DNA from: an uncultured Bacilli bacterium
GTDB taxonomy: Bacteria > Bacillota_I > Bacilli_A > RF39 > UBA660
DNA: 49,617 nt
NCBI GenBank assembly: GCA_944363715.1
Contig: CALVUX010000014.1
Coordinates: 1 to 49,617, forward strand
Direction: 5' to 3'
Shown: positions 15,892 to 27,445 of the stretch, one piece after another
Numbering within the stretch: the stretch's first letter is position 1
How the letters are laid out: each line of letters opens with the position of its first letter
Position numbers and translations under genes: made by a program
The notes under the pieces: model-generated
Told to the model about the DNA's origin: nothing
Database searches by the model: none
What the model saw: only the letters and a program-made list of their open reading frames with translations

Positions 15892-17676
15892 CTATTTTTT
15901 TACACTTAATATGATACGTAAAGAAGTCGTTTCATAAGGATTTCCATTTAAATGTCCATGATGAAAACCATAGACTCCTGCACCAGTATTATCATAATAG
16001 CGACCGCCACGTAACAGCCAGGGATAAGTTCCACTTACCATGGTGTAATAATCACTATACCAGTTACTTGTTTCAGATAAACCATGTGATAAACATCCAC
16101 TTCCATTACACGCAGTAAATATATTATCACTTGTATATTTATCGTAATATTTAGGATTTGGCATAGAAACGAAGCTACTTTCTCCAAACACATCATTATA
16201 ATTGGCCATAGTATATTCCCACGAACCTCCACTCATATCATAAATTCCATAGATTGTTCCTGTTGTTGATGCACCTGTTCCACTTCCTTCTATTTCATAA
16301 GTATATTGACATCCATAATCTGTATTACCATTACTAGGAGTTCCATAACTACAACCTGTTATATATTTATCTGATTTATTTTGATATATTTCTTTATTTG
16401 AACCACTAAAATCAGTATTACCAAATTTTCCATATTTACTTTGTGATAGATAGGAAACTAATCCCCATTCACTATTCTTCATCATATGGGTATCTACATC
16501 ACTTGTAAAGCCATATCTATTTCCGCTATCATTCATCTTTATACTTACATTAAAGGCATTACTTATAGATATAAGTCTCCAACTGGTTACATTTGGTTTT
16601 ATCATAGCATCTAAACTAGTTGTATTATCTCCTCCATAACTTGCATTTGGATTACTACTACTTGTCTCAAACTTTCCTACCCATATTCCAGAAAGTTCTT
16701 CATCTCCAAAGGTAAAGGCATCTGGAGTATACCAACTATTAGATTGTATACCATCGCTAACTATATACTTTGCACTACCTCTATCTTTTATTTCGTCACT
16801 TACAAATCTTACATCTATCTCTCCTGGTAAACTCTGAGTTGGTTGTGTATCTAAATAACATCCTTTCTTTCCATAGTAATTTGTTCCATCTTCACTTCCT
16901 ATACTATAACTATATCTTGGTACCCATACCCACATTGTCTCTATATCATTCATAGACACTACTGTTCCTACTGAAGCATTCTTATAACTACTTCTTGTTA
17001 ATGAAGTTACTGTTACAGCATTAGCCCATTTCTGTTCATCATAATTATACCAATCATCATTTGTATTATTAGTATCTGCTTTTACCCAATTACTCCCATT
17101 ATATGTAACTGCTATCATTCCATCATCTAACTCTGGAGCATTAGGAATATCTTTATACTCATTAAATAAATGGCCATTACTTGGTAACTCTAAATCATTA
17201 TAATCTAGTCCTACACTTACTCCTAAATTTATAGTTATTTCACTATTAGAATTATTTTCTACCATTATCTTATAGATAATATTAGATCCAGCACTTCCAC
17301 TTTTTTCTAAATTAACACCTTTCTCTTCTGGAATAGCATTTATTTCACAATCTAATATATAACCTGATTCTACATTATTAGGTAGGTCTCCTATATAATA
17401 AAAATTAAATCTTGCTATTCTATTATTAGGATTACTTAGTGTTACTATAAACTCTTTACTACTATTAGGTTCTACTGTTAAAGTATTAGTTTCTTCTCCA
17501 TCTACTTCTAACTTATAAGTTAAGTTTCCTGTTACTATACTTATGGCATTACTCTTCTCTTTTGTTACTGTAAACATAGCATAAGAAAAGTAACTTCCTA
17601 ATATTAATAGAGTTATTATAATCATTACTATCATATATATCTTACTAAAACTTACTTCAAAAAATATTTTTTTCAT
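15892..17676 (-). CDS. Surface protein: SipW/TasA-type N-terminus, formylglycine/lectin-fold C-terminus
   Basis: A 594-residue exported protein. The N-terminus has one TM helix (IYMIVMIIITLLILGSYFSYA) followed by AMFTVTKEKSNAISIVTGNL, the pattern of TasA/camelysin proteins handled by SipW-type signal peptidases. A beta-sandwich-like region follows (residues ~40-170). The C-terminal ~350 residues have the WVWVPRYSYSIG...IWVGKFE...GGSWEYTMANYND...LLRGGRYYDNTGAGVYG...LRIILSVKK arrangement of formylglycine-generating-enzyme/C-type lectin folds, likely a binding domain rather than an enzyme. The start has AGAGAGG. It has its own promoter and terminator. The last ~35 residues resemble the variable region of diversified lectins. 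Confidence 0.8.
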   Translation of the reverse strand: MKKIFFEVSFSKIYMIVMIIITLLILGSYFSYAMFTVTKEKSNAISIVTGNLTYKLEVDGEETNTLTVEPNSSKEFIVTLSNPNNRIARFNFYYIGDLPNNVESGYILDCEINAIPEEKGVNLEKSGSAGSNIIYKIMVENNSNSEITINLGVSVGLDYNDLELPSNGHLFNEYKDIPNAPELDDGMIAVTYNGSNWVKADTNNTNDDWYNYDEQKWANAVTVTSLTRSSYKNASVGTVVSMNDIETMWVWVPRYSYSIGSEDGTNYYGKKGCYLDTQPTQSLPGEIDVRFVSDEIKDRGSAKYIVSDGIQSNSWYTPDAFTFGDEELSGIWVGKFETSSSNPNASYGGDNTTSLDAMIKPNVTSWRLISISNAFNVSIKMNDSGNRYGFTSDVDTHMMKNSEWGLVSYLSQSKYGKFGNTDFSGSNKEIYQNKSDKYITGCSYGTPSNGNTDYGCQYTYEIEGSGTGASTTGTIYGIYDMSGGSWEYTMANYNDVFGESSFVSMPNPKYYDKYTSDNIFTACNGSGCLSHGLSETSNWYSDYYTMVSGTYPWLLRGGRYYDNTGAGVYGFHHGHLNGNPYETTSLRIILSVKK

Positions 17677-17738
17677 AAACTAGTACCTCTCTTATTTTAT
17701 AAGTCTGCCCATTTACTTATCTTTTATACTATAATTAA

Positions 17739-17767
17739 ATATTAGCATAAACGTTTCTTTTTATCAA
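17739..17767 (-). promoter_or_regulatory. Promoter of the 15.9-kb surface protein gene
   Basis: Minus-strand TTGATA (17762-17767), 17-base spacer, TAATAT (17739-17744), about 63 bases before the ATG. Confidence 0.6.
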
Positions 17768-17780
17768 TATTCTTGACATC

Positions 17781-17815
17781 AAAAAAAGAATAGACTATCC
17801 TTACTCTATTCTTTT
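17781..17815 (-). terminator. Terminator of the poly-G small gene
   Basis: A perfect 11-base stem AAAAGAATAGA/TCTATTCTTTT with a 10-base loop is followed on the minus strand by seven T. The longer reading frame of the small gene upstream stops inside the stem. Confidence 0.85.
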
Positions 17816-17858
17816 AAGCCATAATGAAAGAAAGTAATTTTATTACTTAGTTTACTAT

Positions 17859-17978
17859 CTAATACCCCCCCCCCACAGATAACATATTGTAAACATGAGT
17901 TTCTCGGGGTCTTAGTATATTTAGTGGACAGTTTTTTCCAAGGTTATCAAACATTATTAAAGTATCTCTACTACCCAT
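17859..17978 (-). CDS. Small gene with poly-G(10) tract, possibly phase-variable
   Basis: A short gene with complete signals: promoter at 18016-18044, AAGGAAGGG 7 bases before the ATG at 17978, and a terminator at 17781-17815. As read it encodes 39 residues starting MGSRDTLIMFDNLGKN and ending VGGGY. The last codons come from ten consecutive G (plus-strand C, 17865-17874). With 8 or 11 G the frame continues for about 19 more residues (VLDSKLSNKITFFHYGLKE) and stops at 17806 inside the terminator stem, which looks like the ancestral end. With 9 G it stops within a few codons. The tract could switch the C-terminus on and off, or be a sequencing error. The family is not recognised. Confidence 0.6.
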   Translation of the reverse strand: MGSRDTLIMFDNLGKNCPLNILRPRETHVYNMLSVGGGY

Positions 17979-18015
17979 AATATATCCCTTCCTTCCATTT
18001 TTATCTTATATATTT

Positions 18016-18044
18016 ATCTTAACATATTGAATTTGTTTTATCAA
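18016..18044 (-). promoter_or_regulatory. Promoter of the poly-G small gene
   Basis: Minus-strand TTGATA (18039-18044), exactly 17 bases, TAAGAT (18016-18021), about 38 bases before the ATG. Confidence 0.65.
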
Positions 18045-18119
18045 CGAAAAATTTATTGTTCCCTTTAATATATTTAATAAATAAGTTATAATAATTTTTA
18101 GAAAGATGAGTGTTTAGAT

Positions 18120-18701
18120 ATGAAAGGTATTTTAAATAAAAAAATATATGAGCTAACTATTAAAAACTCTAAGTTTATAGGGATTATTGTACCTATAAAG
18201 TCTAAAGAAGATATAAGAGAAAGGCTAAATGAATTAAAAACTGAATATAAAAATGCCACTCACTATTGTTATGCGTTTACCTTAATTAATGATAAAGGAT
18301 TTAGTGATGATGGGGAACCTAATAAAACAGCAGGTATACCTATTCTAAATGTAATAGAAGGTAATGATTTAGTTAATGTTTTAATAGTAGTAATAAGATA
18401 CTTTGGAGGCATTAAATTAGGACCTGGAGGTCTTATTAGAGCATATTCTCAAACTACTAAAGCAATTATTAATAAATCTACTTTAATAGACTTAATTAAC
18501 GGTTTAGAAGCTTCTATTACATTTGATTATTCTAAAGAAAAAGAGATTAACTATTTACTAAAAAATAGTATTATCAAAAATAAAGACTATGAACAAAACT
18601 GTACTTATATAATAGAAACTACTAAAGAAATATTAGATAGTATCTCTAACTTAGTAACTATTAATTATGTAAATGAAAAAATAATTCCTAAACTTAACTA
18701 G
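18120..18701 (+). CDS. yigZ: YigZ/IMPACT family protein
   Basis: A member of the UPF0029/IMPACT family; eukaryotic IMPACT regulates translation through GCN1, and the bacterial role is not settled. The N-terminal domain carries the family motifs KFIGIIVPIKS, ATHYCYAF, FSDDGEPNKTAGIPIL and the signature VIRYFGGIKLGPGGLIRAYS (residues ~85-110). The C-terminal ~60 residues form the DUF1949-like domain. Length 193 is slightly below the usual ~205-215. It is transcribed alone; its TAG overlaps the stop of the convergent XRE gene within a CTAG. Confidence 0.93.
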   Translation: MKGILNKKIYELTIKNSKFIGIIVPIKSKEDIRERLNELKTEYKNATHYCYAFTLINDKGFSDDGEPNKTAGIPILNVIEGNDLVNVLIVVIRYFGGIKLGPGGLIRAYSQTTKAIINKSTLIDLINGLEASITFDYSKEKEINYLLKNSIIKNKDYEQNCTYIIETTKEILDSISNLVTINYVNEKIIPKLN

Positions 18702-25555: not shown

Positions 25556-27139
25556 TTATTTACCACTATCTCCATAGTTAGATAAAACTCTAGCACTTGG
25601 ATCATCTACTTTACATCCATCCCAGTCTTTATTAGGCATCCAGTAGTCTACTATTAAATCACTTCTACCCGGATAAAACTCTTCAAATATCTCACGATAT
25701 AACAATGATTCTTTAGTAAACGGTGTATGTTTTGGATACTTTTTAATTTTCTCCTCATATTCTTCATCTGTATATAAACTCTCTGCATATTCTTTTAAAT
25801 CATAAACTAATGAATGCCCTACTGCATCACTAAATGCAGCCTTTTCTCTATATAAGATATTCTCTGGTAAATAATCTCCTTCAAAAGATTTACGAAGTAA
25901 ATATTTTCCCATTCCATAAGTATTCATCTTAAGTTTAGGATCAATAGAGATCACATAATGTATAAAATCTAAATCTGCAAATGGAACTCTCGCTTCCAAT
26001 GAACAACTAGAAATACATCTATCCGCTCTTAGTACATCATACATATAAAGTTCTCTAACTCTTTTCTCACTTTCTTTTTGGAACTCTTTAGGAGATGGAG
26101 CAAAGTCAGTATATTTATAACCAAATAACTCATCACTAACTTCTCCTGTTAATATTACTCTAATATCAGTATTTTCTCTAATCCATTTAGAAAGTAAATA
26201 CATTCCAATAGATGCTCTAATAGTTGTAATATCCCATGTTTCTAAACGATATATAACATCTTTTAAAGCATTAATTACATCATCTCTTGTAATAATAACT
26301 TCATGATGAATACTACCTATATAGTCTGCTACTTGTTTAGCATATTTCAAATCAATAGCATCTATATCCATACCAATAGCAAAGGTATGAACTTGTTTAT
26401 CTAATATTTTAGATGCTATAGAACAAACTAAACTAGAATCAAGTCCTCCACTTAATAGAAAACCAAGAGGTACATCAGAATCTAATCTTTTCTTAACTCC
26501 CTCTACTAATCTTTTATGAATTTCAGGATATACTTTTTCTAAATCATCACTAATAAAAAACTCTACTTTAGTCATATCTACATATTCTTTAAACTCTCCA
26601 TTAGTATAATAATGTCCTGGTGGAAAAGGATATACCTCACTACATAAGTCTACTAATGCTTTCGCTTCACTTGCAAACATAATAGAGTGACTCACTTTAG
26701 AATATCCATAAAACATTCCTCTAATACCAATAGGATCTCTTGCAGCTACATAATCTTTCTTCTTAGAATCATAAAGAACAAGAGCAAACTCACTATCTAA
26801 CATTTTAAACATATCTAATCCATATTTCTCATACATAGGAAGTAATACTTCACAGTCACTTTCACTAGTAAATTTAACTCCATCATGAATTAATTCATCT
26901 TTTATTTTATGAAAGCCATAAACTTCTCCATTACATACTAAGACATTACCATCTCTTTCAAAAGGTTGCATGCCTTCTTCACTTAACCCCATAATAGATA
27001 GTCTATGAAAACCAAAGATTCCAAAGTCATATTCCTTAATTCTACTCATATCAGGTCCTCTATATTTTATCTTAGAAAACCCTTCTAAAAATTCTTTTTT
27101 ACTAATATCTCTTTTAGTATAAACTTGAAAACCACACAT
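25556..27139 (-). CDS. asnB: Asparagine synthase (glutamine-hydrolysing)
   Basis: It makes asparagine from aspartate, ATP and glutamine. The true start is the ATG at 27139, giving MCGFQVY with Cys2 as the N-terminal nucleophile of the glutaminase domain (residues ~2-190; RGPD, NGEVYGFH, SDCEVLL). The synthetase domain has the P-loop FLLSGGLDSSLVCSIA near 235 and ILTGEVSDELFGYKY. The ribosome binding site is GAGAGG. First gene after the Asn T-box; asnS follows after 32 bases, so both respond to uncharged tRNA-Asn. Confidence 0.96.
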   Translation of the reverse strand: MCGFQVYTKRDISKKEFLEGFSKIKYRGPDMSRIKEYDFGIFGFHRLSIMGLSEEGMQPFERDGNVLVCNGEVYGFHKIKDELIHDGVKFTSESDCEVLLPMYEKYGLDMFKMLDSEFALVLYDSKKKDYVAARDPIGIRGMFYGYSKVSHSIMFASEAKALVDLCSEVYPFPPGHYYTNGEFKEYVDMTKVEFFISDDLEKVYPEIHKRLVEGVKKRLDSDVPLGFLLSGGLDSSLVCSIASKILDKQVHTFAIGMDIDAIDLKYAKQVADYIGSIHHEVIITRDDVINALKDVIYRLETWDITTIRASIGMYLLSKWIRENTDIRVILTGEVSDELFGYKYTDFAPSPKEFQKESEKRVRELYMYDVLRADRCISSCSLEARVPFADLDFIHYVISIDPKLKMNTYGMGKYLLRKSFEGDYLPENILYREKAAFSDAVGHSLVYDLKEYAESLYTDEEYEEKIKKYPKHTPFTKESLLYREIFEEFYPGRSDLIVDYWMPNKDWDGCKVDDPSARVLSNYGDSGK

Positions 27140-27166
27140 AATAATCATCCTCTCTAATAAATAATA

Positions 27167-27220
27167 AAAGACTAGTCTCATACCATAATACTTATAGTAC
27201 TATGGGACGAAACTAGTCTT
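27167..27220 (-). terminator. asnB: T-box attenuator terminator
   Basis: On the minus strand an AAGACTAGT arm pairs with ACTAGTCTT through a long stem (further CCATA.TAC pairing, with G-U pairs) followed by a U-rich stretch. It sits directly after the T-box sequence and before asnB. Confidence 0.8.
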
Positions 27221-27445
27221 CCGCGGTACCACCCAATTTATTATAAAGGAATTATTAACTTTATAATCACTTTTTTCGATTCTATCAAATCTAGCAAATG
27301 TAACGGTTTGCACCCGGCTTAGTCTACTTAATTTCTTTAAGCACTCCGAAATGTTATTCACTACTCACACTTTACTTGTTTCCACCAACCACAAGCTCTC
27401 TATAAAAGATTAGAAGTAGTTACTTCTTTTCATCAATGTTTTGAT
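27167..27445 (-). promoter_or_regulatory. T-box riboswitch, Asn specifier, before asnB
   Basis: The minus strand carries the T-box GGGTGGTACCGCGG at 27221-27234, just before the terminator. About 120 bases upstream is Stem I with AGAGAG, GGTGGAAACAAG and the specifier region GTGAATAACATTTCGG. AAC at 27353-27355 is an Asn codon in the position expected of the specifier. Uncharged tRNA-Asn would pair there and with the T-box, favouring the antiterminator and expression of asnB-asnS. It fills the ~350-base gap between asnB and the helicase gene. Confidence 0.92.

Follow-up and report, generated by a model that had tools for sequence, protein, structure and literature searches.

A short transcription unit carrying ten consecutive G residues lies on the minus strand of the 49,617-nucleotide stretch of DNA analysed here (the window), and raises the question of what a change in the length of this tract would switch. 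An earlier note on this DNA had described a promoter, a strong ribosome-binding site, an open reading frame of about 39 codons, the G10 tract and a terminator, and each of these is present to the base. The leader promoter TTGATA-17-TAAGAT (18016..18044, minus strand, as are all features of the unit) is a consensus match only, and a generic promoter score gave sites upstream of leaders the same values as control stretches of this AT-rich DNA. It is followed by the Shine-Dalgarno sequence GGAAGGAAGGG (17986..17996) and by a leader ORF that, as assembled, runs from the ATG at 17978 through 39 codons and a stop (17859..17978). Within this ORF the motif GTTTACAATATGTTATCTGT (17875..17894; genus consensus GTTTACAANNNGTTACCT), which prophage cassettes also have, is followed by the G10 tract, the putative switch element (17865..17874). 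Downstream are the conserved core TTACTTTCTTTCATTATGG (17819..17837), complementary to the leader Shine-Dalgarno and in typical copies also to that of the surface gene, and an intrinsic terminator hairpin with a T tract (17781..17814).

With ten G's the leader ORF stops 47 nt upstream of the terminator stem. At 8 or 11 G's the alternative frame after the tract (..VLDSKLSNKITFFHYGLKE*, 17806..17864) gives a longer ORF, as had been predicted, here of 56 or 57 aa, and its TAG (17808-17806) lies within the terminator stem, 6 nt into the 5′ arm; at 9, 10 or 12 G's the ORF ends 43-47 nt short of the terminator. The tract had also been singled out correctly as the longest G/C run, being so by far in the window, where the next longest is 5; at its composition (27% G+C), the expected number of runs of 10 or more is about 0.0009. 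An Rfam search of positions 17600-18200 returned no family above its gathering score, the best match being RsaOG (E=3.2). Elsewhere in the window, a T-box leader (RF00230, E=4.7e-32) was found at 27200-27445 on the minus strand, upstream of a 541-aa ORF at 25556-27181.

The unit had been presented as a solitary hidden gene, and this description did not hold. A DNA search of the source genome (1.4 Mb) returned 14 places resembling the tract half of the unit, making it one of 14 homologous copies. Across the genus the cassette has at least 94 copies, nearly always immediately upstream of a gene for a membrane-anchored surface protein, and an Onthousia genome holds in the order of ten cassette loci (at least 11-13). 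Its elements run in the order Shine-Dalgarno (AGAAAGAAGGTAA), ATG, short ORF with GTTTACAANNNGTTACCT directly before the G tract, G tract, conserved core TTACTTTCTTTCATTATG and terminator, and some 30 nt past the terminator comes the anchored-protein gene, beginning MKKLLLETSFSKIYMIVMIIITLLILGSYFSYAMFTV. The downstream ATG lies no more than 45 nt past the terminator in 83/94 leaders, a distance that leaves no room for a separate promoter in these copies. The leader together with the start of the gene occurs in nearly all genomes of the genus and hardly outside it, and protein matches from named genomes came from Candidatus Onthousia and from gut Bacilli/Tenericutes MAGs.

The proximity of a surface protein gene, also noted before, was confirmed: the unit adjoins a gene (15892..17676) for a 594-aa product with an N-terminal membrane anchor (MKKIFFEVSFSKIYMIVMIIITLLILGSYFSYAMFTV..), and most copies in the genome directly precede such a gene. 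With this protein the genome encodes 11 close paralogs, all of which (11/11) have a leader, the one at C5:1769 being devoid of a G tract; two further leaders lie upstream of related VGVSYAAFSY-type proteins. Tracts of at least 8 G's, far above chance, occur at 13 places in the 1.4-Mb genome, 12 of them in leader cassettes at surface-structure genes, a distribution characteristic of poly-G contingency loci, and one in a prophage. The leader at C9:31514 of the same genome (L018) has only G5, is locked in the ON frame as defined below, and is followed by an unrelated gene for a 327-aa protein with no obvious anchor. One contig of this genome (C18, 9500-20000; L009) carries three units of cassette and surface gene, one of the surface genes being truncated to 119 aa. 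Some leader ORFs (e.g. L007, L008, L038, L217 and L241) share an exchangeable 5′ module in their N-terminal part, encoding approximately M.NL.YQGKINRQF.GKLIR.

The label 'surface protein' is a prediction that rests on the N-terminal membrane anchor. The 594-aa product gave a weak match to DUF6568 at its N-terminus, below the cut-off, and another paralog matched DUF6273 above the cut-off. The N-terminal parts of the paralogs align and their C-terminal parts vary. Structure prediction for the 594-aa protein yielded a mean pLDDT of 44 and was poor beyond residue 245; the model is usable only for the anchor helix and, at about 55-157, for a beta-rich domain.

We gathered 94 distinct leaders by the core motif and terminator, ignoring frame, from about 80 fetched regions and the named loci. 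These leaders are related to each other and do not count as independent observations. Among them, the core-defined frame was open from the tract into the terminator in 94/94 and met its stop inside the hairpin in 93/94, usually 6-12 nt into the 5′ arm. The remaining two frames reached the hairpin in 1/188 cases, their stops lying at a median of 28 and 36 nt upstream of it. After clustering at 80% similarity, this one-frame rule held in 10/10 versus 0/20. The position of the ON stop was constant although the terminator arm and the end of the peptide vary (LKE, RRIE, VTKRE, RAG, RTG). Another 40 loci, chosen by a tract of G8 or more alone and including divergent leaders from G146, G160 and G171, contained 31 with exactly one frame reaching a hairpin, a supportive result and not a clean one, some of the 31 being weak or coding-region matches; the remaining loci were mostly contig ends, tracts within ordinary genes, and phage cassettes.

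The rule extended to two further genera of the family, with leaders of unrelated sequence. In genus G081, a leader M[DN]KVYYNKLTTMIL before G9-12 followed the same frame rule; the ON stop lay 19-26 nt inside the hairpin at 5/6 loci and at -3 in the sixth, and 1/6 was actually ON. In genus G093, another unrelated leader lies upstream of prepilin-like genes, and one frame only reaches the stem, with its stop at the edge (-1); all eight leader tracts read there were G9, OFF by the frame rule, and those with downstream sequence precede prepilin-like genes. Along with the anatomy, the link to surface genes at many loci and the length differences between copies, the one-frame rule can be read directly from the genomes.

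An additional layer was seen in the predicted RNA. The core of typical copies pairs over ~8-18 bp with the Shine-Dalgarno of the surface gene (SD2), enclosing the terminator. Duplexes between core and SD2 were on average more stable at their own locus than when swapped between loci (-13.8 vs -12.5 kcal/mol; Wilcoxon 6e-6), and shuffled cores gave -8.0 kcal/mol. RNAalifold on 59 sequences recovered both helices, with the terminator nested within the core:SD2 helix. Covariation in this alignment took the form of T-A to C-G exchanges in the terminator and was mostly of the G-C to G-U type in the outer helix, and paired changes were seen between loci (CATTATG/AATAATG, CATAATG/AATTATG). The stretch CTTTCTTT of the core was invariant in 59/59 aligned copies, synonymous sites included. 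The core also pairs with the leader's own Shine-Dalgarno, with a locus-specific gain over swaps of nearly nil (-0.14 kcal/mol). These results support the SD helix, short of proving it, and make a further, translational level of control through the conserved anti-Shine-Dalgarno segment probable.

We propose, with a probability of about 0.77, that the cassette is a phase-variable, translation-coupled transcription attenuator that uses poly-G. The leader promoter would start an RNA with a short ORF that has a Shine-Dalgarno of its own, and replication slippage would add or remove G's in the tract of this ORF, so that any of the three frames could be the one in which the ribosome leaves the tract. 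In two of these (OFF), a stop roughly 25-57 nt upstream of the intrinsic terminator would let the hairpin form, and transcription would halt before the surface gene. In the third (ON), the ribosome would reach the stop codon in the 5′ arm of the terminator, which would block the hairpin and allow readthrough by the polymerase. In typical copies the ON ribosome would also open the core:surface-SD helix, which would act as a second, translational gate. It is anti-termination and SD gating that we infer here from sequence.

The cassette was taken as a translation-coupled attenuator because its geometry matches that of a tested system, pil1 of Streptococcus gallolyticus (PMC3894217). There, the frame of a leader peptide depends on GCAGA repeats; its short form ends 39-49 nt upstream of a terminator and its long form in or next to it, and genetic tests established that translation through the terminator raises pil1 transcription (Danne et al., 2014; PMC3894217). 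The literature that was searched describes phase-variable leader-peptide attenuation for two pilus loci (pil1 and pil3) of one Streptococcus species group (PMC3894217). The cassette shares with these loci a leader ORF with its own start and Shine-Dalgarno upstream of the target, a simple repeat within that ORF that sets the frame, with ON or OFF given by length modulo 3, a terminator between leader and target, the same geometry of a short form stopping well upstream and a long form inside, and surface structures as targets. It differs in using poly-G instead of GCAGA pentamers, in its presence at 11-13 loci or more per genome and in many species as against two pilus loci, in having individual anchored proteins as targets in place of sortase pili, in the conserved anti-SD helix that encloses the terminator, and in being known here from sequence alone. 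GCAGA repeats and a sortase pilus operon, by which a strict pil1 homolog would be recognised, were absent from the cassette, and by this comparison we regard it as working like pil1 and not as its homolog.

Two other kinds of system invite comparison. Like the poly-G contingency loci of Campylobacter, Helicobacter and Neisseria, the cassette has homopolymeric G tracts, of about 8-13, that alter a reading frame. The contingency tracts of those bacteria usually lie within the target gene or its promoter, whereas the tract of the cassette is in a separate leader ORF and would act via the terminator. As in trp-type amino-acid attenuators, leader translation would decide terminator formation; unlike in these, the signal would be the frame set by tract length and not charged tRNA, and the leader has no sensing codons except the Gly run of the tract. 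The open literature, as far as it was covered, contained the pil1 precedent and many poly-G contingency loci, and no report of the cassette in these bacteria. An arrangement known from one Streptococcus species group would here be a multi-copy cassette of an uncultured gut genus, of other genera in the family and of prophages.

How far the proposed attenuator applies to the copy in the window is a separate matter. As assembled, with G10, this copy is OFF by the frame rule, and ON is predicted at G8 or G11. It is an atypical copy. Its terminator and surface gene are separated by 108 nt, and this gap contains a second promoter-like module, TTGATA-17-TAATAT (17739..17767), that recurs in few other long-gap copies (L007, L097 and L242 only, with a weaker form in L077); the core:surface-SD pairing is weak (-9.1 kcal/mol); and the N-terminus of the leader is chimeric, unlike those of other copies. 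The surface gene thus seems to have its own promoter as well, and may be expressed whatever the state of the leader. Given this module and the weak pairing, the switch may be only partly coupled here, or a relic. That the window cassette is a decayed or decoupled remnant, with the surface gene driven from its own promoter, is a serious possibility at somewhat less than even odds, favoured by all three peculiarities and opposed by the intact G10, one-frame rule and terminator, and by the fact that the leader could still supply a second, switchable transcript. This reading is limited to one copy and not to the cassette class, and is compatible with the attenuator explanation.

We then considered the tract lengths, which over all copies lay between 0 and 13. 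In the collection of 94 leaders they were 4-13, with G9 the commonest (46/94) and G10 in 15/94. For 64/92 leaders with a called start, the length required for ON is 2 modulo 3 (8 or 11), which makes both G9 and G10, the common lengths, OFF. The ON frame was present in 14/92. Among tracts of 8 or more, 7/70 were ON, under the one-third expected of random frames (p=1e-5, ignoring relatedness), and among shorter tracts 7/22 (Fisher p=0.035 vs longer tracts). Surface genes behind OFF leaders are mostly intact, at 500-626 aa, as expected if they are sometimes used. Assembly error as a general explanation of the tract was ruled out by its recurrence in many species.

A fixed tract would be an alternative to a switch: slippage of RNA polymerase, or frameshifting by the ribosome, along the G run would give steady low expression, with no heritable switching. 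The strong preference for G9, seen also at the eight of eight G093 loci, points this way, as does MutS, which is present in nearly all genomes of the genus and counts against switching of the proposed attenuator, as slippage would be lowered. The same observation rules out that slippage stems from a loss of mismatch repair. A peaked length distribution can also result from a slippage equilibrium, however, and lengths of 5-13 come with unlike frame offsets, the G9 class needing +1 and the G10 class -1, so that no single direction of shift serves all copies. Moreover, near-identical copies differ in the tract. The orthologs L229 and L232, with hardly a difference over about 330 nt, have G9 and G6; the prophage cassettes C23 (G10) and L286 (G11) differ by 3 mismatches; and L008/L040 and L282/L078 are further close pairs with unequal tracts. 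Between near-identical copies the tract clearly exceeds its flanks in indels per base, but it is only moderately more variable than they are, and lengths are not randomised. We consider a fixed tract unlikely. The differences are between species and between paralogs, one genome per species having been compared, and it is from these that we infer slippage and switching within populations. A poly-G frame switch, as originally suggested, is strongly supported by this comparative evidence (the frame rule, the conserved tract and the length differences between copies); the outcome that would have spoken against it, one fixed length and no relatives, did not occur.

What is switched appears to differ from what the earlier note proposed, a true phase-variable small protein with the surface gene merely adjacent. 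Many copies do have a start, a Shine-Dalgarno and a conserved C-terminal stretch, TFFH. Against this, leader N-termini differ widely, C-termini change along with the terminator arm, the core is invariant at the nucleotide level, as RNA pairing would require, and unrelated leaders in other genera retain the frame rule and not the peptide. The conserved features are the tract, the frame that enters the terminator, the terminator and the anti-SD segment. A small-protein gene is very improbable as the switched object, and a leader ORF whose translation would control the downstream surface gene is the better reading. Sensing of glycine or tRNA-Gly(CCC) by ribosomes stalled on consecutive GGG codons, two to four of which the tract yields in any frame, can hardly be credited, as stalling would be independent of frame and well upstream of the terminator, and would leave unexplained why one frame always enters the hairpin and why the targets are surface genes.

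If the cassette is an attenuator as proposed, tract length modulo 3 would be a sequence rule predicting which surface genes are on in any genome or metagenome, and the cassette suggests a means of surface variation for these gut commensals and perhaps also for their phages. Prophages with portal, tape measure, tail and lysis genes carry a related leader (around 2586 of contig C23 in the source genome, minus strand, L253; also L285, L286 and L319). It has G10 or G11 and the same GTTTACAATATGTTAC motif, and lies upstream of tandem tail-like genes (..ILNPKIPRYE..); its G9/G12 frame overlaps the next start codon, which suggests translational coupling. Related prophage cassettes were found in other genomes, L319 being from another genus, and IMG/VR scans for the motif gave no match.

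Poly-G of 9 or more was present in 53/98 sampled genomes of the family. It was seen at three kinds of site at least, namely in leader ORFs, in promoter spacers (TTGACA..G-run..TATAAT) and among the opening codons of surface genes. Tracts between -35 and -10-like boxes of surface-protein genes were found in other genera (L294, L295, L299, L307, L316, L317, L342 and L343), and by their position would represent a promoter-spacing type of switch. We tentatively extend the proposal to the whole family of gut Bacilli, which might run its surface repertoire through a G-tract cassette gating transcription (by the terminator) and translation (by the SD helix), tuned so that the common G9 and G10 are OFF and only G8 and G11 ON, leaving few surface genes on per cell, with prophages switching tail (probably receptor-binding) genes by a related cassette. 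A genome of genus G021 (L338-L341) has dozens of loci with exactly G9, those read having TGCAACT-G9-TGCAATACAAT before anchored proteins, and this fixed length is unlike phase variation.
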